A stretch of 23,777 nt of DNA from an uncultured Lachnospiraceae bacterium (GTDB lineage Bacteria; Bacillota_A; Clostridia; Lachnospirales; Lachnospiraceae): contig CACYDL010000196.1 of the NCBI GenBank assembly GCA_902773195.1, positions 1 to 23,777 on the forward strand, read 5' to 3'. The notes below the pieces were generated by a model. It was not told the origin of the DNA and ran no database searches. It was given only the letters and a program-made list of their open reading frames with translations. Of this stretch, positions 2,563 through 23,777 are shown piece by piece; the first letter of the stretch is position 1; each line of letters starts with the position of its first letter. Position numbers and translations under genes: made by a program.

Positions 2563-3294
2563 TTACTGGAATACGTGTGTATATTTCGAGGAGACCCAGC
2601 CGTAGATGCCGCGGTAGGCGACGTTGTACCAGACGACGTTGCGGGAATCCCGCTCGAAATTCTCCGTGTACACCAGGTACGCGCCCTCCGGGACGGTGGT
2701 GATCGTGTTGAAGTACAGCCCGGGGCCTTCGCGGAGGTTGACCGCGGTGGTCACGACGATGGTCCGGGTTTCCGGCTCCGCCGAGGAGACGAGACGGGAG
2801 CAGTTGGAGGAGATCCAGCAGGTCATGCCGCTGTATCTCACCTCGAACCAGCAGACGCCCCTGGAATCCGTGCGGGTGCCGCCGAGGAACGTCAGGTAGG
2901 TCCCCTCGGACACCGTCGCCGCGATGCTGTATTCCAGGCCGGCGCCCAGCCGGAGATTGGCGTCCGTGACGACCTGGACGTAATCCTCGGAGGAGAAGCT
3001 GCCGGACTCGTCGCTGTAGGAGGAGCGGGTCACCTGGTTTGAGGATACCCAGTAGGTGCAGCCCATGTAATACACGCGGTACCAGAGAACGCCCCGCCCG
3101 TCGTAGTCCGAGTCGTAGGCGTAGCTGAGGGAGGTGCCTTTGGACACCGTCTCGCCGATGGAATATTCCTGGCCGGGGCCGTAGCGGAGATTGGTGGTGG
3201 CGACGGTGATGAAAGAGGAGCCGTCGGCGTAAGCGGCGGCGGGAACGAGGAGCAGAAGGGTGAGAACCAGAAAGACGGAAAGAAGTTTTTTCAT
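2563..3294 (-). CDS. Exported protein with three SH3-type repeats
   Basis: This 243-residue protein has a signal peptide (MKKLLSVFLV, Leu-rich core, A-Y-A/D cut near residue 23). Three bacterial SH3 (SH3_3-like) repeats follow at about 27-86, 105-170 and 178-240. Each shows the family signature: V.T..LNLR-type strand (TNLRYGPG, ANLRLGAG, VNLREGPG), a .G..L turn, WY.V.Y.G or WFEVRYSG, and (G/Y/C)W(V/I)SS. These domains usually bind peptidoglycan; no enzyme domain is attached. The SH3 repeats differ in type from those of the four-repeat protein at 143-1090, so the two are not recent duplicates. The start has AAGGAGG nine bases upstream and a promoter about 70 bases upstream. Confidence 0.87.
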   Translation of the reverse strand: MKKLLSVFLVLTLLLLVPAAAYADGSSFITVATTNLRYGPGQEYSIGETVSKGTSLSYAYDSDYDGRGVLWYRVYYMGCTYWVSSNQVTRSSYSDESGSFSSEDYVQVVTDANLRLGAGLEYSIAATVSEGTYLTFLGGTRTDSRGVCWFEVRYSGMTCWISSNCSRLVSSAEPETRTIVVTTAVNLREGPGLYFNTITTVPEGAYLVYTENFERDSRNVVWYNVAYRGIYGWVSSKYTHVFQ

Positions 3295-3360
3295 GGCGTG
3301 CAGCCTCCTTTTCGATGGACAGCGCGTGGCGCTGAAGATACCGCTGATTCTTTCTATTCT

Positions 3361-3389
3361 ATTTTATCCTATTTTCGAACGGGTGGAAA
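3361..3389 (-). promoter_or_regulatory. Sigma-A-like promoter for the three-repeat SH3 gene
   Basis: On the minus strand, TTTCCA (3389-3384) and TAAAAT (3366-3361) are 17 bases apart. The -35 matches TTGACA at four of six positions and the -10 matches at five of six. It is an AT-rich island in GC-rich surroundings, with expected transcription start near 3354. It probably drives the three-repeat SH3 gene and the duplicated-domain gene behind it. Confidence 0.55.
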
Positions 3390-3417
3390 GGCGCAGATCG
3401 GCGCGGGACGGATTTCG

Positions 3418-3524
3418 CCCGGTCCGCCGCGCGGGAGAACCCGTTCCTGACCTGCCGCACGGAAAACCCGTTCCCCGTCCGCCGCGCGGGAAGGCCGCTC
3501 CTGATCCGCCGCGCGCGGGAAAAA
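3418..3524 (+). repeat. Four imperfect tandem repeats between divergent promoters
   Basis: Units at 3418-3439, 3440-3466, 3467-3494 and 3495-3524 share the pattern CCCGTTCC, (T/C)G(A/T)CC, GCCGCGCGGGAA with small changes in length. They fill the space between the minus-strand promoter at 3361-3389 and the plus-strand promoter at 3528-3556. The whole gene-free stretch 3295-3625 (331 bases) therefore holds two divergent promoters, this repeat block and a leader hairpin; no credible gene lies within it. Confidence 0.6.
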
Positions 3525-3527
3525 GAG

Positions 3528-3556
3528 TTGCCTGCTTCATGGAAGAAGCATATAAT
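3528..3556 (+). promoter_or_regulatory. Sigma-A promoter for the exported trigger-factor-like gene
   Basis: TTGCCT (3528-3533) and a perfect TATAAT (3551-3556) are separated by exactly 17 bases. Transcription would start near 3563, giving a leader of about 62 bases. The leader contains a CCGCGG/CCGCGG hairpin (3577-3582 with 3590-3595) just ahead of the ribosome binding site AAGGAGG (3611-3617). Confidence 0.75.
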
Positions 3557-3625
3557 TGAACCGTTACGCGGGTGGACCGCGGGTTTCGTCCGCGGCAGGG
3601 AGAATGTGTAAAGGAGGCAGACAGA

Positions 3626-16400: not shown

Positions 16401-16985
16401 TGGAAGAGCCGGGTTACCGCCGTGTCCTCGGACTTCGCCCTGGACGAGGAGACCGGGGAGGCGAAGATCCGGGCCGACTCGCGGCAGACCATCGGGGGAA
16501 TGATCTCCCAGAAGACCATCAAGTACACGAAGAACAACAAGACGATGGCCTTCATTACCCTGGAGGACGTCGTGGGAACCGTGGAGGTGCTGGTTTTCCC
16601 GAATGTGTACGAGCAGTACAGGGAGCTTCTGACCGAGGACGCCAAGGTGTTCGTCGAGGGACGGGTCTCCGGCGAGGACGACCGGGCGAGCAAGCTGATC
16701 TGCGAGAAAATCAGCCGCTTCGAGGACGTGCCCAGGGAGCTGTGGATCGCCTTCCCCACCGTGGACGATTTCCTCAGGCGCCAGGGGGAGATGGAGGATC
16801 TGATGGCGGAGTCGGAGGGCATCGACGAGGTGTGCGTGTTCCTTCGGGACACCAGGCGGTACCGCCGTCTGAGCGACAAAGGCCGGATTCTGATCTCGGA
16901 CCAGACCGTGGCCGCCTTCCGGCGCATCTTCGGGGAGGAGAACGTGACGGTCCGTGTCAGGAAGGGAGCGGGCGCTTCCGTCTGA
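13449..16985 (+). CDS. dnaE: DNA polymerase III alpha subunit
   Basis: This 1178-residue replicative polymerase (DnaE type) copies DNA in the cytoplasm as the core of the holoenzyme. The PHP domain opens the protein (HLHVHTEYSLLDGS, residues 5-18; ITDHGVMYG follows). The catalytic Asp residues are D401 and D403 in PDIDVDF and D554 in KMDFLGL, with GPGRGSAAGS just before the first pair. The FNKSHAAAYA segment and the tandem helix-hairpin-helix region come next. An OB-fold lies at about 1015-1080 (IKYTKNNKTMAFITLED...EVLVFP). Length is normal for DnaE. GGAAAGGGAAG precedes the ATG. A promoter for pfkA begins 36 bases after the stop codon. Confidence 0.97.
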   Translation: MSFVHLHVHTEYSLLDGSNKIKEYVSRVKELGQTAAAITDHGVMYGCIDFYKEALAQGIRPILGCEVYVSPGSRFDKEAGVSDDRYYHLVLLAENDAGYGNLMRIVSAGFTEGFYYKPRIDKELLREYHEGLIALSACLAGEVPRRIGDNDFAGAKKAALEYLDIFGEGNYFLELQDHGIPEQKHVNQMLIRLHEETGIPLVCTNDVHYTLKEDAESHDILLCIQTQKKVSDEDRMRYEGGQYFVKSEQEMAALFGYVPEAMENTARIAERCHVTITFGERKIPAYDVPGDMSSWDYLNLLCRQGMERNYGADYEERRPELKERLMYELATIRDMGFVDYFLIVWDYVRFAKDHDIIVGPGRGSAAGSIVSYALGITELDPVRYSLLFERFLNPERVSMPDIDVDFCFERRQEVIDYVVSKYGRERVVQIVTFGTMAARGVIRDVGRALDFPYSETDRIAKMIPQELNMTLNRALEMNPDLRREYEGDEKVHYLIDMSKRLEGLPRNTSMHAAGVVICGRPVVDYVPLSRAQDGSITTQYTMTTLEELGLLKMDFLGLRTLTVIQNAVRLVNDGLREAYGDPAEAVRPDGGRGLLDMEKIDYDDPKVMEMIGHGRCEGVFQLESSGMKSFMKELKPHTLEDIIAGIALYRPGPMDFIPKYIRGKEHPESVTYDTPLVEPILRPTYGCIVYQEQVMQIVRDLGGYSMGRSDLVRRAMSKKKAGVMEEERRNFIYGNEEQGVPGCIAAGIPENVASRIYDEMTDFAKYAFNKSHAAAYAVVSMQTAYLKYYYPVEYMAALMTSVIDSPVKCAEYLLHCRATGIRILPPSVNDGQGRFTASGGSIRCGMYAIKSVGRGVIDRLVEERNAGGPYQSFRDFITRTYGKDMNRRAIENLIKAGACDCFGGTRKQLMQVYPVILDRAAYDSKEMITGQMSLFDFMNPEEKKEFDAPFPDVGEFTKEVRLSFEKEVLGIYLSGHPLEEYESLWKSRVTAVSSDFALDEETGEAKIRADSRQTIGGMISQKTIKYTKNNKTMAFITLEDVVGTVEVLVFPNVYEQYRELLTEDAKVFVEGRVSGEDDRASKLICEKISRFEDVPRELWIAFPTVDDFLRRQGEMEDLMAESEGIDEVCVFLRDTRRYRRLSDKGRILISDQTVAAFRRIFGEENVTVRVRKGAGASV

Positions 16986-17020
16986 CGGGAGGGCGCGCTC
17001 CGAAAAAGAACGACAATTCA

Positions 17021-17049
17021 TTGAAAAAATGATGGGCATGCTTTAAAAT
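17021..17049 (+). promoter_or_regulatory. Sigma-A promoter for pfkA and the genes behind it
   Basis: TTGAAA (17021-17026) and TAAAAT (17044-17049) are separated by 17 bases, matching consensus at five of six positions each. Transcription would start near 17056, leaving a GC-rich leader of about 109 bases. The leader holds a CCCGGG/CCCGGG hairpin (17093-17098 with 17105-17110) before the ribosome binding site GGGAGGG (17152-17158). Confidence 0.78.
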
Positions 17050-17164
17050 GAACTGGTAAACTGTCTGCGCAGCAACGGCGGAGCAGCCGCGGCCCGGGGG
17101 ACGTCCCGGGACAAGGCGCGGGGCGGATTCCCGCAGCGGCCGCCTGTTTCCGGGAGGGAAAGCT

Positions 17165-18196
17165 ATGGCTGAATCGAAAAAAGAAATCAAGACCATCGGG
17201 GTTCTGACGAGCGGCGGCGACGCGCCGGGCATGAACGCCGCGATCCGGGCCGTTGTCAGACGCGGACTCGGCAGAGGACTCAGAGTTTTCGGTATCTACA
17301 GAGGATATGACGGCCTGATGGACGACGACCTCCGGGAGATGTCCGCCCAGGACGTCTCGGATACCATCCAGAAGGGCGGCACCATTCTCTACACGGCGCG
17401 CTGCGCCGAGATGCGCACCCCCGAGGGCCAGAAGCACGCCGCGGAGACCTGCCGGAAGCACGGGATCGACGGCCTCGTCGTGATCGGCGGCGACGGCTCC
17501 TACCGGGGCGCCCAGTGCCTCGCCCACCAGGGCATCAACGTCGTGGGGATCCCGGGGACCATCGATCTGGATATCTCCTGCACGGAGTACACCATCGGGT
17601 TCGACACCTCGGTCAATACCGCCATGGAGGCCATCGACAAGGTGCGCGACACCTCGACCTCCCACGAGAGATGCTCGATCATCGAGGTCATGGGAAGAAA
17701 CGCGGGCTACCTCGCGCTGTGGTGCGGAATCGCCAACGGGGCGGAGGACATCCTGCTCCCCGAGAAATACGACTACGACGAGCAGAAGATCATTGACAAC
17801 ATCATAGACAGCCGCCACAGGGGAAAGAAGCACCACATCATCATCAACGCCGAGGGCGTCGGCCACTCCGCCTCGATGGCGAGACGGATCGAGGCCGCCA
17901 CCGGCATCGAGACCAGGGCGACCATCCTGGGCCACATGCAGCGCGGCGGAAGCCCCACGGCGAAGGACCGCGTCTACGCGTCCATCATGGGCTGCATGGC
18001 GGTGGACCTCCTGATCGAGGGCAAGAGCGAGCGCGTCGTCGGCTACCGGAACGGACAGTTCCAGGATTTCGACATCGACGAGGCCCTGGCGATGGTCAAG
18101 GGCATCGACGATTACCAGTACGAGATCGCGACGGCGATGTCGGGCGGCTACCGCAAGGGCTCGATCGCGAAGGCGCTCATGGACGAGTCGCTGTGA
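17165..18196 (+). CDS. pfkA: ATP-dependent 6-phosphofructokinase
   Basis: This 343-residue enzyme phosphorylates fructose 6-phosphate to the 1,6-bisphosphate in glycolysis. Motifs in order: LTSGGDAPGMNAAIR (14-28), the ATP-site GGDGS (108-112) with Gly rather than the Asp of pyrophosphate-dependent enzymes, the catalytic loop PGTIDLD (130-136), MGRNAGY (176-182) and GHMQRGG. The usual TIDND loop reads TIDLD here, with both key Asp kept. It starts 115 bases after the promoter -10 and is the first gene of a probable five-gene transcript. GGGAGGG lies six bases before the ATG. Confidence 0.95.
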   Translation: MAESKKEIKTIGVLTSGGDAPGMNAAIRAVVRRGLGRGLRVFGIYRGYDGLMDDDLREMSAQDVSDTIQKGGTILYTARCAEMRTPEGQKHAAETCRKHGIDGLVVIGGDGSYRGAQCLAHQGINVVGIPGTIDLDISCTEYTIGFDTSVNTAMEAIDKVRDTSTSHERCSIIEVMGRNAGYLALWCGIANGAEDILLPEKYDYDEQKIIDNIIDSRHRGKKHHIIINAEGVGHSASMARRIEAATGIETRATILGHMQRGGSPTAKDRVYASIMGCMAVDLLIEGKSERVVGYRNGQFQDFDIDEALAMVKGIDDYQYEIATAMSGGYRKGSIAKALMDESL

Positions 18197-19084: not shown

Positions 19085-20070
19085 AAAGCTTGAAGGGACG
19101 TTCATTTCTGACGCTCAGGGACTTTACGCCGGAGGAGATCACCTATCTTCTGGATCTCGCCGCGGAGCTCAAGGAGAAGAAGAAAAAGGGGATCTATGAC
19201 TACGATATCCCCCGCAGAAATATCGCGCTGATCTTCGAGAAGACGAGCACGAGAACACGCTGCGCCTTTGAGGTGGCCGCCCATGACTGCGGCATGCAGG
19301 TGACCTATCTGGATCCTTCCGGATCCCAGATCGGAAAGAAGGAGAGCATCGCGGACACCGCCCGCGTGCTCGGAAGAATGTATGACGGCATCGAGTACCG
19401 CGGCTTCGATCAGTCGATCGTCGAGGAGCTGGCGAAATACGCGGGCGTGCCGGTCTGGAACGGCCTCACCAACGAGTTCCATCCGACCCAGATGCTGGCC
19501 GACATGCTGACGATCCGCGAGCATCTCGGAGGCCTCAAGGGAAAGAAGCTGACCTACATGGGTGACGCGCGCTACAACATGGGCAACTCCCTGATGGTGG
19601 CGTGCTCCAAGCTGGGACTGCATTTCACCGCCTGCACCGCCGCGGCCTATTTCCCGGACGCCGCCCTCGTGGAGGAATGCCGGGAATACGCGAAGGAGAG
19701 CGGCGGCACCATTACCCTGACGGAGGACGTCAAGGCGGGGACCGCGGGCGCCGACGTCATCTACACGGACGTGTGGGTCTCGATGGGAGAGCCCGCCGAG
19801 GTCTGGGAGGAGCGCATCCGCGCCCTGCTGCCCTATCAGGTGAACGCCGCCGTGATGGAAAACGCGGGGCCTCAGGCGATCTTCATGCACTGCCTGCCGG
19901 CGTTCCACGATCTCGGAACCGGCATCGGCCGCGATATCCACGAGCGCTTCGGGCTCGACGCGATGGAGGTCACGGACGAGGTGTTCGAGTCTCCCCGCTC
20001 CGTCGTCTTCGATGAGGCGGAGAACCGGATGCACACGATCAAGGCCGTGATGGCGGCCACCCTCGGATGA
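19081..20070 (+). CDS. argF: Ornithine carbamoyltransferase
   Basis: This 329-residue enzyme joins carbamoyl phosphate to ornithine to make citrulline, in arginine synthesis, or runs the reverse step in arginine breakdown. The carbamoyl-phosphate loop STRTR (56-60) is followed by [17 protein letters not shown], the ornithine-site D.WVSMG and HCLPAFHD. These are the diagnostic OTC motifs and exclude aspartate carbamoyltransferase. The close match to the longer [18 protein letters not shown] type means a catabolic (arcB) role cannot be ruled out. No other arginine gene is in the window. AGGAAGGAG precedes the start, which overlaps the previous stop codon (ATGA). The end overlaps the next start codon in the same way. 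Confidence 0.94.
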
Positions 20071-21023
20071 AGCCCTGCGGAGACGGCGGGGCCCCGTGGG
20101 CGGAGGAGCTGGCCGGACTTCTGGAGAGGTCCGGCGACGACGGCTTCTACCGGCTGGTCTACTACCGGACGTGCGACTCGACGAACGAGTGCGTGAAGAG
20201 GGAGGCCGCGAAGGGAGCCCCGGAGGGACTCCTCGTCGTGGGAGAGGAGCAGACCGCCGGCAAGGGCCGGAGCGGCAGAAGATGGGTCAGCCCGAAGGGA
20301 GAGGCGGTCTATTTCTCCTTTCTGCTGAGGCCCGGCCTCGCGCCGGATCACGTCTCCGCCCTCACGCTGGTGATGGGGCTGTCCGTGGCCCAGGCGGTGC
20401 GGGAGCTCTTTCCCGGGACCCTCGGGCCGGAGGTCGGCATCAAGTGGCCCAATGACATCGTCATCCGCGGAAGGAAGATCTGCGGGATCCTCACGGAGGC
20501 CGGGGCAGAGGACGGCAGGATCGACTGGATCGTCATCGGGACGGGCATCAATGTAAACAACACCGCCTTCGCTCCCGAGATCCGGGACCGGGCGGTCTCT
20601 CTTCGTCTCGCGCTGGAGGAATGCCGGAGAAATCCCGCCTCGGGAAGCGGCGGAGACGGCGGACCCGGCCGGGACAGCAGCAGCGGGAACGCCGCGGCGC
20701 TTCCTTCGGAGCCCGCCGCGATGCCCCCGGAATCCCCCGTCATCTCCCGGGCGGAGGTGACGGCAGCGGTGCTGGCGAGGTTTCACAGAAATTACGGGAT
20801 CTACCTGGAGACCGGGGATATGGAGGGCCTGACCGCCGCCTATGACTCCCTTCTGGTGAGCCGGGACAGAGAGGTCCGCATCGAGGATCCGTCGGGCGCC
20901 TATACCGCCGTGTCGAGAGGCATCGACCGGCTCGGCCGCCTCGCGGCGGAGCGGGAGGACGGCACGGTGGAGTACGTCTCCGCGGGAGAGGTGTCGGTCA
21001 GGGGCATCTTCGGTTACGTGTGA
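20067..21023 (+). CDS. birA: Biotin--[acetyl-CoA-carboxylase] ligase, without DNA-binding domain
   Basis: This 318-residue enzyme activates biotin with ATP and attaches it to carboxylase carrier proteins. Visible motifs are CDSTNE, the biotin-binding loop GKGRSGR (65-71), KWPNDIVI (126-133) with the catalytic-type Lys, KICGILTE and GTGINVN. A small SH3-like C-terminal domain follows (about 265-318). There is no N-terminal winged helix, so it should lack BirA-type repressor activity. A Gly/Ser/Pro-rich insertion of about 35 residues (188-225) separates the catalytic core from the last helices. No good ribosome binding site precedes the start; translation probably relies on the ATGA overlap with argF. 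Confidence 0.93.
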
Positions 21024-21032
21024 CAGAGCCTT

Positions 21033-21060
21033 CCGGCGCGCTTCCTGCGGAAACGGCCGG
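21033..21060 (+). other. Nested hairpin between birA and the response regulator gene
   Basis: CCGGC (21033-21037) pairs with GCCGG (21056-21060), and inside it TTCC (21042-21045) pairs with GGAA (21049-21052). It fills much of the 63-base gap, with no U-tract and no promoter visible. Transcription probably reads through. Confidence 0.45.
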
Positions 21061-21086
21061 GCGGCAGGGGACAGGAGAACGGAAAA

Positions 21087-21776
21087 ATGAGCAGAATTCT
21101 GATTATAGAGGACGAGGAAGCCATCGCCCAGCTTGAGAAGGACTACCTGGAGCTCAGCGGGTTTGAGGTCGATATCGAGACGGACGGGACGAAGGGCCTG
21201 ACCGCCGCCCTTGAGGGCAGCTATGATCTGTACATCCTGGATCTGATGCTGCCGGGGACGGACGGCTTCGAGATCTGCCGGCAGATCCGGGAGCAGAAGG
21301 ACGTTCCGGTCCTCATGGTTTCCGCGAGAAAGGACGACATCGACAAGATCCGCGGCCTGGGCCTGGGGGCGGACGACTATATCACGAAGCCCTTCTCGCC
21401 GAGCGAGCTGGTGGCCAGGGTCAAGGCCCATCTGGCGAGGTACGACCGGCTCATGGGCGGCGGCGCCGGGAAGAACGACGTGCTGGAGATCCGGGGCCTC
21501 CGGATCGACAAGACGGCCCGCAGGGTGTGGGTCAACGGGGAGGAGAGACAGTTCACGGCGAAGGAATTCGACCTGCTCGCCTTCCTGGCGGAGCATCCGG
21601 ACCGGGTCTACAAGAAGGAGGAGCTGTTCCGGGAGATCTGGAACATGGAATCGGTGGGAGACATCGCCACCGTGACGGTCCACATCAAGAAGATCCGGGA
21701 GAAAATCGAGTTTGACTCCTCGAAGCCCCAGTACATCGAGACGATCTGGGGCGTCGGCTACCGCTTTAAGATTTAA
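21087..21776 (+). CDS. OmpR/PhoB-family response regulator
   Basis: This 229-residue DNA-binding regulator has a receiver domain (1-118) with acidic pocket D9/E10, phosphoacceptor D52 in LDLMLPG, S79 and K101 in TKPF. A winged-helix domain follows (about 130-229), recognised by FTAKEFDLLAFLAEHPDRVYKKEEL, the TVTVHIKKIREKI recognition region and the IWGVGYRF end. All phosphorylation residues are present, so control by a histidine kinase is expected. No kinase gene follows, which is unusual for this family; the next gene is a metabolic one with its own promoter. AGGAG lies nine bases before the ATG. The regulated genes cannot be inferred from sequence alone. Confidence 0.93.
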   Translation: MSRILIIEDEEAIAQLEKDYLELSGFEVDIETDGTKGLTAALEGSYDLYILDLMLPGTDGFEICRQIREQKDVPVLMVSARKDDIDKIRGLGLGADDYITKPFSPSELVARVKAHLARYDRLMGGGAGKNDVLEIRGLRIDKTARRVWVNGEERQFTAKEFDLLAFLAEHPDRVYKKEELFREIWNMESVGDIATVTVHIKKIREKIEFDSSKPQYIETIWGVGYRFKI

Positions 21777-21829
21777 AATCGGGAGCCGAAAGCCTGGAAG
21801 CCGCGTAAATACCGGGAGACCGTGAAATC

Positions 21830-21838
21830 TGCTAAGAT
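21830..21838 (+). promoter_or_regulatory. Extended -10 promoter for the deglycosidase pair
   Basis: TGCTAAGAT is an extended -10 element (TG-N-TAAGAT) in the only AT-rich patch between the response regulator and the deglycosidase genes. No good -35 is present (TACCGG at 17 bases), suggesting dependence on an activator or on the TG motif. A start near 21845 gives a leader of about 38 bases ending in GAGGAGGAG. Confidence 0.45.
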
Positions 21839-21882
21839 GGATATAGTAGAAACCTGTACAGAAACAAGAGGAGGAGAACAGA

Positions 21883-22353
21883 ATGTTTGACAACTTTTTG
21901 ATTGTCCCGGGCTCGCTGAAAAACGATCTCGACGAGAACGGGCATGCCGCGGGATTTCAGTTCGCCGTCCGCATCGCGGATTACCGCGGCTGCTTTCTGT
22001 CGCTGCACAACGGTTATTACATCGACTGCGACGGCGTGAACTATCCCCGGGAGACGCAGAGCTTCGAGATCAACGGAAAGCCGCCCAGGAGCTTCGAGGA
22101 GCTGAAGAGCTGCTGCTGGGAGCACTGGAACTACGACGACGCCGGAATCGTGCACGTGAAGAAGGAAGGCGGACTCGCGCCGGGAAAGCACACCATCGGA
22201 CTGCAGCAGAGCATCCTGGCCCAGTACGGCTATATGCCCTGGGACGAGGAGTGGGTGAAAAATCCGCCGGTTCCCGGCAGCGGCGGCGGAGCGGGAAAGA
22301 CAGAGACCATCAGTATGTTTGAGATGACGCTGGAAGAAGGAGGTGCCGCGTAA
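21883..22353 (+). CDS. Probable C-glycoside deglycosidase beta subunit (DUF6379-like)
   Basis: This 156-residue protein has no signal peptide or membrane segment. It resembles the small subunit (DfgB/DgpB/CarB type, DUF6379) of C-glycoside deglycosidases: MFDNFLIVPGSLKN at the start, GFQFAVRIADYRGCFLS, a .DGVNYP strand, SFEINGKPPRSFEEL, then WNYDDAGIVHV and GLAPGKHTIGLQ. The pattern suggests a beta-sandwich. The family partner is a TIM-barrel alpha subunit, and just such a gene overlaps the stop codon here by one base. Together they cleave the C-C bond of 3-oxo C-glycosides. The last 25 residues (Pro/Gly-rich, then Glu-rich) look flexible. The strong ribosome binding site GAGGAGGAG precedes the start. 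The assignment is from recalled family features without a search. Confidence 0.75.
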   Translation: MFDNFLIVPGSLKNDLDENGHAAGFQFAVRIADYRGCFLSLHNGYYIDCDGVNYPRETQSFEINGKPPRSFEELKSCCWEHWNYDDAGIVHVKKEGGLAPGKHTIGLQQSILAQYGYMPWDEEWVKNPPVPGSGGGAGKTETISMFEMTLEEGGAA

Positions 22354-23417
22354 TGTCGATCAGAAGAGGCGTATCCCTGTACAGCTATCAGCAGTCCCAG
22401 TTTTTCGGAAAAATGGACTGGAAGGCCCAGATCCGGGAGGTCCGGGAAGGCCTGGGAACCGACGGCATCGAGATCATCAATCAGCAGCTGATCCGCGATT
22501 ATCCCTTCCCCTCCCGGGAATTCCTCTATGACTGGCGCAGCTATATGGCCCGCTACGACATGACCGCCGTCACCATGGACGTCTATCTCGACGTCCACCA
22601 GTTCCGGGATCACGTGATGACCCACCGGGAGGCCGCGGAGCATCTGAAGAACGACATCCGCCTGGCGGCGGAGATGGGCTTCAAAAATATCCGGACGCTG
22701 GTGCTGGTGCCCATCGACGTGATGGAGATGGCCCTTCCCACGGCGGAGAAATACGACGTCCGCATCGGCAAGGAGATTCACGCCCCGTGGCCCATCAAGC
22801 CGGGCGGACACCGCGAAAAGGCCACCAAGGGCATGGCCGCCGGCATCAACTTCAACGCCGTCGAAGAGATTCTGGAGCTTCGGGAGAGGACGCAGAGCCC
22901 CTACATCGGCCTGGTCCCCGACTTCGGCATCTTCCAGTTCGCCCCCTCCCGCGTCGCCGTCGATTACATCCGGCGCCACGCGGCCGATCAGGACGCGGTG
23001 GATTTCATTCTGGAGAACGCGGCGAACTACGGTCACGACGAGCTGATCGACGTGGTGGACGAAAAATTCCCCGGCCATGGAATCCCGATCAACAGCATCG
23101 ACCGTCTGGCTCTCCACGAGCCCTGCTGCAAACCCGAGGATATCAGGGAAATCATTCCCTATATCATCAGTATCCACGGAAAGTTCTACGACATGACGGA
23201 GATCGAGGGGCAGCCGGGACATTACGAGGACAAGTGCATCGACTACGAGACGCCGATGAAATACCTGCGGGAGGGCGGCTTCGACGGCTACATCGATTCC
23301 GAGTTCGAAGGACAGCGTGATCAGCAGGACATGGGCGTGGAAGGACTGGTGGACGAAGTGGAACAGGTCCGCCGCCACCACGAGATGCTGAGGCGCCTTT
23401 CCGGGGAAGCGGAGTAA
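22353..23417 (+). CDS. Probable C-glycoside deglycosidase alpha subunit (TIM barrel, sugar isomerase-like)
   Basis: This 354-residue protein belongs to the sugar phosphate isomerase/epimerase (xylose isomerase-like) superfamily and resembles DfgA/DgpC/CarC alpha subunits. Barrel strands appear as RRGVSLYSYQ, DGIEIINQQ, AVTMDVYLD, FKNIRTLVLV, IGLVPDFGIF, YIISIHGKFYDM and GYIDSEFEG. Candidate metal ligands are E141 (in KEIHAPWP), D190 (VPDFG), H275 (ISIHGK) and E317 (DSEFEG); H143 is a candidate catalytic base. The Gly-Phe-rich barrel is cytoplasmic. In characterised systems this subunit needs the beta partner, and a separate oxidoreductase first makes the 3-oxo sugar; none is seen in the window. 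AGAAGGAGG precedes the start, which shares an A with the previous stop (TAATG). Confidence 0.8.
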   Translation: MSIRRGVSLYSYQQSQFFGKMDWKAQIREVREGLGTDGIEIINQQLIRDYPFPSREFLYDWRSYMARYDMTAVTMDVYLDVHQFRDHVMTHREAAEHLKNDIRLAAEMGFKNIRTLVLVPIDVMEMALPTAEKYDVRIGKEIHAPWPIKPGGHREKATKGMAAGINFNAVEEILELRERTQSPYIGLVPDFGIFQFAPSRVAVDYIRRHAADQDAVDFILENAANYGHDELIDVVDEKFPGHGIPINSIDRLALHEPCCKPEDIREIIPYIISIHGKFYDMTEIEGQPGHYEDKCIDYETPMKYLREGGFDGYIDSEFEGQRDQQDMGVEGLVDEVEQVRRHHEMLRRLSGEAE

Positions 23418-23420
23418 ACA

Positions 23421-23444
23421 GCGGCCCGGCTCATGCCGGGCCGC
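23421..23444 (+). other. Perfect hairpin after the deglycosidase pair
   Basis: GCGGCCCGGC (23421-23430) and GCCGGGCCGC (23435-23444) form ten perfect GC-rich pairs around a TCAT loop. It starts three bases after the stop codon and ends 17 bases before the next start. There is no U-tract, so partial termination or 3' protection of the deglycosidase message is more likely than full termination. Confidence 0.65.
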
Positions 23445-23461
23445 GGGAGAGAGGAACCGCC

Positions 23462-23777
23462 ATGAAAATCAGACATGCCGACATAAAAGACCTGGACCGG
23501 ATGATGGAGATCTACCGCTTCGCGAGACAGTTTATGGCGGAGCACGGCAATCCCCATCAGTGGGGCCCCACGAACTGGCCCCCCGAGGAACGGATCCGCG
23601 GCGATATCCGGGACGGCTGCAGCTACGTCTGTCTCAGCGACGACGGCAGGATCATCGGCACCTTCTTTTTCAAATGCGGGAAGGACGTCGAGCCGGGGTA
23701 TCGAAATATCGAGGACGGCGCCTGGATGGACGACAGTCCCTACGGCGTCGTGCACCGCATCGCCGGGGACGGATCCG
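23462..23777 (+). CDS. GNAT-family N-acetyltransferase, cut by the window end
   Basis: The reading frame is open from ATG 23462 to the end of the window, giving the first 105 residues. The opening (MKIRHADIKDLDRMMEIYRFAR) is the usual first strand and helix of GNAT proteins. It is followed by HGNPHQWG, a helix ending in the RIRGDIRDG segment, and strands SYVCLSDDGRIIGTFFF and the start of a VVHRIA strand that leads to the acetyl-CoA loop. GNATs move an acetyl group from acetyl-CoA to an amine; the acceptor is unknown. GAGAGAGGA lies a few bases upstream. It follows the deglycosidase pair by 44 bases across a strong hairpin, so co-transcription is possible. Confidence 0.8.
   Translation, partial: MKIRHADIKDLDRMMEIYRFARQFMAEHGNPHQWGPTNWPPEERIRGDIRDGCSYVCLSDDGRIIGTFFFKCGKDVEPGYRNIEDGAWMDDSPYGVVHRIAGDGS

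Follow-up and report, generated by a model that had tools for sequence, protein, structure and literature searches.

The window analysed here, the whole stretch of 23,777 nucleotides from an uncultured Lachnospiraceae bacterium, carries near its end two overlapping genes that an earlier note took for the beta (DUF6379) and alpha (TIM-barrel) subunits of a C-glycoside deglycosidase (CGD). They lie beside a response regulator and among housekeeping genes. The locus raises the question of what such a pair does in this place: whether it is a CGD at all, which reaction it would catalyse, and whether the neighbouring regulator and the solitary setting bear on that reaction.

Both genes are present as open reading frames on the forward strand. 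The beta gene (positions 21883–22353) codes for 156 amino acids and the alpha gene (22353–23417) for 354; the two overlap by one base, in the sequence TAATG. AGGAGG is found 8–9 nt 5′ of each ATG: the Shine–Dalgarno-like motif of beta lies at 21869–21874 and that of alpha, extended to AAGGAGG, at 22337–22343, within the 3′ end of the beta gene. A GC hairpin follows the alpha stop codon at 23421–23444 (z = −3.3 for the fold of 23405–23465). It has ten pairs, all GC, with no U tract on the forward strand; its tail on the reverse strand is TGTTTACTCC. No RNA element was detected at the Rfam gathering scores, and the tRNA search was also without a match. The reverse strand contains a 673-codon open frame (19872–21893) antisense to argF, birA and the regulator gene, which we take as a by-product of the high GC3 and not as a gene.

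The family assignment is clear for beta, which matches the Pfam profile PF19906 (CGDB, the former DUF6379) with E 2.1e-33 and 114.9 bits against a cut-off of 27.6. Alpha matches PF01261 (AP_endonuc_2, the xylose-isomerase-like TIM barrel) with 45.4 bits against a cut-off of 31.1. In NCBIfam, beta has no match and alpha none above the cut-off. Chance similarity is ruled out by the 1324 alpha and 671 beta homologues found at E<=1e-3. Among PDB sequences, alpha has eight distinct matches at E<=0.01, all of them CGD entries (best 8qvc_A, E 9.5e-46), and beta has seven at E<=0.001, again all CGD (best 9m3a_B, E 1.1e-14); the weaker beta matches are AgCarC2 at 0.0018 and three unrelated proteins at 0.33–0.47.

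Single-chain AlphaFold2 models (pLDDT 89 for alpha and 73 for beta) give the same picture. When the alpha model is compared with the PDB by Foldseek, 16 CGD chains rank first (E 2e-28 to 2e-19); the first other protein is the xylose-isomerase domain protein 4ovx (E 2.5e-12), and the first epimerase follows at E 8.6e-9. The beta model matches 17 chains at E<=1e-3, every one of them from a CGD. Natural beta–alpha fusions, which indirectly favour a complex of the two chains, occur among the relatives, namely in locus L002 (9150–10598) and in the CGD of M. testaceum (8qrz, 435 aa), alongside split CGDs. The profile and fold comparisons had been named beforehand as places where the CGD assignment could fail, and both agree with it, through the PF19906 match and the leading ranks of CGD chains. 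The two genes are thus very probably the two halves of a CGD.

The residues of the active site point the same way. The earlier note had placed metal ligands E141, D190, H275 and E317 and the base H143 in alpha; an alignment of the sequences finds them all, and K277 and E319 belong to the same site. In AgCGD2 the ligands are E147, D179, H269, K271 and E305, with H149 as base and E307 as helper (parts of PMC8563793), and this site aligns to E141, D190, H275, K277 and E317, base H143 and helper E319 of alpha, so that the CGD set of two Glu, one Asp, one His and one Lys is present. The codons lie at 22773–22781 (E141, I142, H143), 22920–22922 (D190), 23175–23183 (H275, G276, K277) and 23301–23309 (E317, F318, E319, the last predicted to position a water for the base). 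Across the alpha ORFs of the window and of the best 80 of 106 loci, which were gathered with profiles of the same family so that conservation is partly built in, E141 and D190 are found in 109 of 109 and H143 in 108 (one has D), while H275, K277, E317 and E319 are each found in 106, the three other rows being gapped. In beta, Tyr34 (codon 21982–21984) aligns, as counted by hand, to Tyr39 of PuCGE/DgpB and is Y in 102 of the 102 beta ORFs, a set gathered in the same way. Between D190 and H275, alpha has a set of helices (191–252 in the model) that corresponds to the lid of PuCGD and AgCGD2. The long loop of beta (about residues 112–140), between its last two strands, is well conserved in a 21-row alignment. 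A motif of this loop, GY.P.DE.W...PP.PG, was tried as a marker and discarded, as only 62 of the 102 beta ORFs contain it.

In the published scheme (parts of PMC8563793, PMC10628242 and PMC13273386), a dehydrogenase oxidises the sugar at C3 before the CGD acts; the base His of the CGD takes the C2 proton, the 3-keto group is held in place by the metal, and departure of the aglycone yields a 2-hydroxy-3-keto-glycal. We consider it likely that the window pair encodes an enzyme of this type: a heteromeric, metal-dependent alpha/beta 3-keto-glycoside beta-eliminase, delinked from the dehydrogenase that supplies its substrate and unrelated to the adjacent regulator. A dehydrogenase encoded elsewhere in the genome would oxidise C3 first. 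The alpha barrel would bind one divalent metal, probably Mn2+, via E141, D190, H275, K277 and E317, and H143, helped by E319, would abstract the C2 proton of the 3-oxo-glycoside. Beta would cap the barrel and form the aglycone pocket, with Tyr34 enabling the cleavage of C–C and not only of C–O bonds, and the products would be the free aglycone and a 2-hydroxy-3-keto-glycal. We infer that the substrates are plant aryl C-glycosides, perhaps also O-glycosides.

The balance between these two substrate types can be read differently. PuCGE acts on both O- and C-glucosides in their 3-keto form, and the study describing it suggests that it is a generalist (parts of PMC10628242); some relatives among the best 80 of 106 loci also adjoin GH3, GH39-AraC and esterase genes. 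The window enzyme could accordingly be a generalist 3-keto-O-glycoside eliminase, with O-glycosides as the physiological substrates and C-glycoside cleavage incidental. What speaks against this is the invariance of Tyr34 in the beta ORFs: its counterpart Tyr39 in the PuCGE beta subunit is required for C-glycoside but hardly for O-glycoside cleavage, and changing it costs little of the latter and nearly all of the former (same source). We hold a generalist O-glycoside role to be unlikely, but of some weight.

Among characterized systems, the best match of alpha, in sequence and in fold, is the Deinococcus aerius CGD (8qvc, 8umc; Foldseek E 2e-28, TMt 0.87), which has the same beta/alpha design; its beta is shorter (123–125 aa), and the match ends at query residue 119. 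PuCGD (DgpB–DgpC) of strain PUE (7bvr, 7exz), 27% identical, shares with the window the metal site, the base H143, the Tyr39 equivalent and the lid between D190 and H275. The published spacing from base to helper is 158 in PuCGD (H143 to E301; parts of PMC8563793) and 166 in MiCGD (H147 to E313), against 176 in the window. EuCGD (DfgA–DfgB, 7bvs) from Eubacterium cellulosolvens shares the metal site, and its beta has a long loop between the last strands, as in the window, which helps to form the pocket; its alpha is described without a lid, unlike that of the window (parts of PMC8563793), and its match to the window alpha falls into two stretches. Elimination from 3-keto-glycosides on a TIM barrel, as proposed here, is also known from the 3-keto-beta-glucopyranoside-1,2-lyases 8tct and 8tcr, although these are far weaker fold matches of alpha (E about 1e-6, ranks 35 and 39). 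AtOGE shares the reaction, the barrel and the Mn site and is described without a beta subunit (parts of PMC10628242); it is absent from the alpha Foldseek matches listed.

The phylogenetic tree of alpha was established from 100 of 109 alpha ORFs (those of at least 300 aa) and three PDB chains (DgpC, D. aerius CGD and DgpC1); MiCGD, AgCGD1, MtCGD and PurBC are not part of it. The window is the sister of UBA2860 (Lachnospiraceae; G001; support 100/95) within a clade of 13 rows (100/99). UBA2860 has the closest alpha among the best 80 of 106 loci, at 93% identity, and its ArgF is 86% identical. All three solved chains fall outside the 82-row clade of the window; those of D. aerius CGD and DgpC1 are long branches of uncertain place, and DgpC groups with the second CGD copy of locus L019. 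With these chains outside the clade and identity to the best solved relative, the D. aerius CGD, at only about 32%, known substrates can be transferred only loosely to the window enzyme. Nearer relatives are found in Catenibacillus scindens, with alphas 67% (L020) and 64% (L031) identical and a beta on the L031 contig 71% identical (P0177). CGDB matches number 14 in C. scindens, against four DgpBC named in PMC11170127 (in the parts drawn on here). The 2.6-Mb sheep-abomasum Lachnospiraceae MAG G008, the genome of locus L037, has 33, an extreme expansion; loci L030, L034, L054, L061 and L063 carry its isolate name.

The response regulator 5′ of the pair (21087–21776, forward strand) is of the OmpR type by Pfam. 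It had been described as unpaired, which holds locally because a kinase–regulator pair has been split in the sublineage of the window. A regulator orthologue of at least 77% identity is found in 31 of 42 genomes of the UBA2860 genus. In eight of eight loci of the usual kind, hand-chosen among these 31 genomes, a kinase gene lies directly 5′ of the regulator; the copy in L129 has HisKA and HATPase domains. The regulator loci compared were L107, L110 and L127–L134. G044 and G037 share with the window the position of the regulator behind birA; both carry the kinase orthologue (62% and 59% identical) on a separate contig.

On the forward strand, birA, the regulator and the CGD pair could form one transcript, with the regulator controlling the CGD. 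The gap between regulator and beta is only 106 nt, and the scan found in it neither a terminator-like site on the forward strand nor a promoter-like site. The promoter of its own that the earlier note had assigned to the pair could not be recovered: the sole sigma-70-like site in 20900–23777, where 0.8 are expected by chance, lies inside the regulator gene. With no terminator or promoter detected in the gap, transcription may read through from the regulator into the CGD genes. Control by the regulator is nevertheless improbable in our view. It is a core gene of the genus that normally follows its kinase. In G044 it again stands behind birA and is succeeded by an AAA_21 ATPase gene and a RloB-like gene (L107, 8354–10224); the 4.4 kb examined there contain no CGD. 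The G037 contig ends 145 bases past the regulator, and in UBA2860 the CGD and the regulator orthologue are on different contigs. RloB-type pairs are often defence genes, and the site 3′ of the regulator may be a variable insertion site. A link between regulator and CGD is thus unsupported, and we judge the regulator to lie outside the CGD unit.

The pair is distributed patchily in the genus. An alpha-like match of any kind is present in 12 of the 42 genomes and a close one in five (93, 84, 81, 80 and 68% identity); two contigs each carry a part of the 80% copy. The G037 orthologue, considered for a time as a broken frame, is intact, its TAA being the natural end of a 349-aa frame. The order acyl-ACP thioesterase, CvfB, TM198-like, DnaE, PfkA, SpoU, ArgF, BirA recurs wholly or partly in the genus genomes; together with the alpha and ArgF identities to UBA2860, this places the window probably in that genus or beside it. 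Amino acid identity of the CGD pair to UBA2860 is 92–94%, at four-fold-site identities of 59.9% (alpha, 137 sites) and 67.2% (beta, 58 sites); so high an amino acid identity at such synonymous divergence indicates purifying selection. The four-fold-site identities of DnaE, PfkA, SpoU, ArgF and CvfB to UBA2860 are lower, at 45.4–53.0%. Against G003, alpha reaches 60.7% and beta 49.1%, with ArgF at 41.8%; no excess of the pair is seen against G002 and G004, and none that is clear against G040, where the 50.0% of alpha is inside the housekeeping range. The GC3 of the pair is 79–83%, compared with 85–90% in seven other window genes. Four-fold-site identities, patchy distribution and a different location in UBA2860 together suggest, though not firmly, that the pair was transferred laterally at some point.

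It might even have come in by lateral transfer and have no working pathway in its host. This would fit with close orthologues (at least 68%) being limited to five genomes of 42, with the lower GC3, with four-fold sites closer to UBA2860 than those of five housekeeping genes, and with the different genomic place there. The frames are intact, however, the ribosome-binding sites are good and the amino acid constraint is strong, and the comparisons with G002, G004 and G040 give no clear excess. We find an idle passenger somewhat less credible still than control by the regulator, and keep to a functional beta-eliminase.

The solitary setting is what had led the earlier note to suppose a different substrate or reaction. 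Its premise, that oxidoreductase and transporter genes are missing nearby, stands for the 21.9 kb upstream, where neither the 21 window proteins nor the profiles gave a catabolic-type gene of either kind (the Pfam scan covered the window proteins except the small ORFs 1103–1348, 3260–3559 and 16957–17232); downstream, the window ends 360 bases past the alpha stop, and for that side the premise is limited to these. The neighbourhoods of relatives were examined within about 8 kb at the best 80 of 106 loci, neighbours being counted as six-frame matches to profiles built from the gene clusters of the loci themselves. Crude gene calls were set aside: they overlooked the beta of L005 and, in the window, preferred the long antisense ORF to the genes argF, birA and regulator.

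Among the 12 other members of the 13-row clade, ten have ABC importer genes; in L009 the only such partner is a Gfo/Idh/MocA gene (on a 6.1-kb contig), and UBA2860 has neither. Two short loci, L029 and L046, are close and both have importer genes, but their ORFs are below the length used for the tree. In the same 80 loci, the 41 with at least 60% alpha identity include 25 with an ABC importer, 15 with Gfo/Idh/MocA, 33 with either and eight with neither (L001, L018, L020, L022, L024, L025, L030 and L034, some on short contigs); the remaining 39 loci, which are more distant, give 9, 28, 31 and 8 in the same order. Further CGD neighbours are GH39-AraC, GH3, esterase, DUF624 and FMN-reductase genes, and at the soil locus L064 a GMC oxidase, a 7-bladed lactonase, a ROK protein and an MFS transporter.

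In UBA2860, exactly one CGDB match is found in 2.7 Mb, and three Gfo/Idh/MocA matches lie together on another contig. The first matches DgpA (E 4e-29) yet 3q2i/3q2k better; the second matches 2p2s and has no DgpA match at E<=1e-8; the third matches 3q2i first, then a glucuronide-3-dehydrogenase and then DgpA-type chains. In the CGD region of this genome (L001, 3506–11436), alpha overlaps the gene of a MATE protein, behind which stands a PLP gene of the D-cysteine-desulfhydrase-like type; a glycosyltransferase-like gene and an AMP-binding/condensation gene lie upstream of the CGD. We considered this context as a biosynthetic cluster and found no support for it. In G044 (8 kb examined) and G010 (12 kb examined), an orthologue of the MATE gene is present with neither a CGD nor the PLP enzyme beside it.

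The simplest reading is that linkage to importer and oxidoreductase genes was lost in the window–UBA2860 pair, as judged with 360 bases visible past the window genes. Separation of the two enzymes is an arrangement already known. Strain PUE has dgpABC in one operon, and in Catenibacillus dgpA lies apart from dgpBC (both from parts of PMC11170127); of the C. scindens alphas, L031 is among importer genes and L020 is not. Within the limits of the window the pair is truly isolated, a setting common to its nearest relative. As an argument for a new reaction this is weak, since most close relatives are linked to importer or oxidoreductase genes and the unlinked arrangement has been published; a different chemistry, proposed from the lonely setting, is thus unsupported. 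A stand-alone CGD could all the same have been recruited in the window/UBA2860 lineage for another job, such as the removal of 3-keto-glycosides that other dehydrogenases produce and that are toxic or a dead end, or the formation of C-glycosides, a direction in which PuCGE runs in vitro (parts of PMC13273386), with the beta loop shaping a pocket for an undescribed aglycone. We regard such a change of function as quite unlikely.

It is very unlikely that the assembly joined a CGD fragment to a housekeeping contig. The order birA–regulator–CGD is seen in none of the 42 genus genomes searched and the window ends soon after the pair, but the GC content of the pair (59–60%) is near that of the rest (61–68%), and the unrelated genes 3′ of the G044 regulator fit a variable site. 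That alpha is a generic sugar isomerase/epimerase or an endonuclease IV-like barrel, as its AP_endonuc_2 match might suggest, is scarcely credible given the paired CGDB subunit and the 16 CGD chains (E<=2e-19) ranking before any other fold.

A metal-dependent beta-eliminase acting on 3-keto-glycosides, with its dehydrogenase encoded elsewhere, thus remains the likely function of the pair. For the locus itself, a false lead is removed, the neighbouring regulator being an unlikely regulator of the CGD. For the family, the window and its relatives form a subclade of predicted C–C bond-cleaving enzymes to which no solved alpha chain of the tree, where three were included, belongs; the closest loci, among the best 80 of 106, are mostly from rumen and gut Lachnospiraceae records. 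If the proposed function is correct, a new subclade would be added to the small family that decides the use of dietary flavone C-glycosides, and solitary members such as those of the window and UBA2860 would be simple tests of whether a CGD can work when its dehydrogenase is unlinked, the situation proposed for Catenibacillus.
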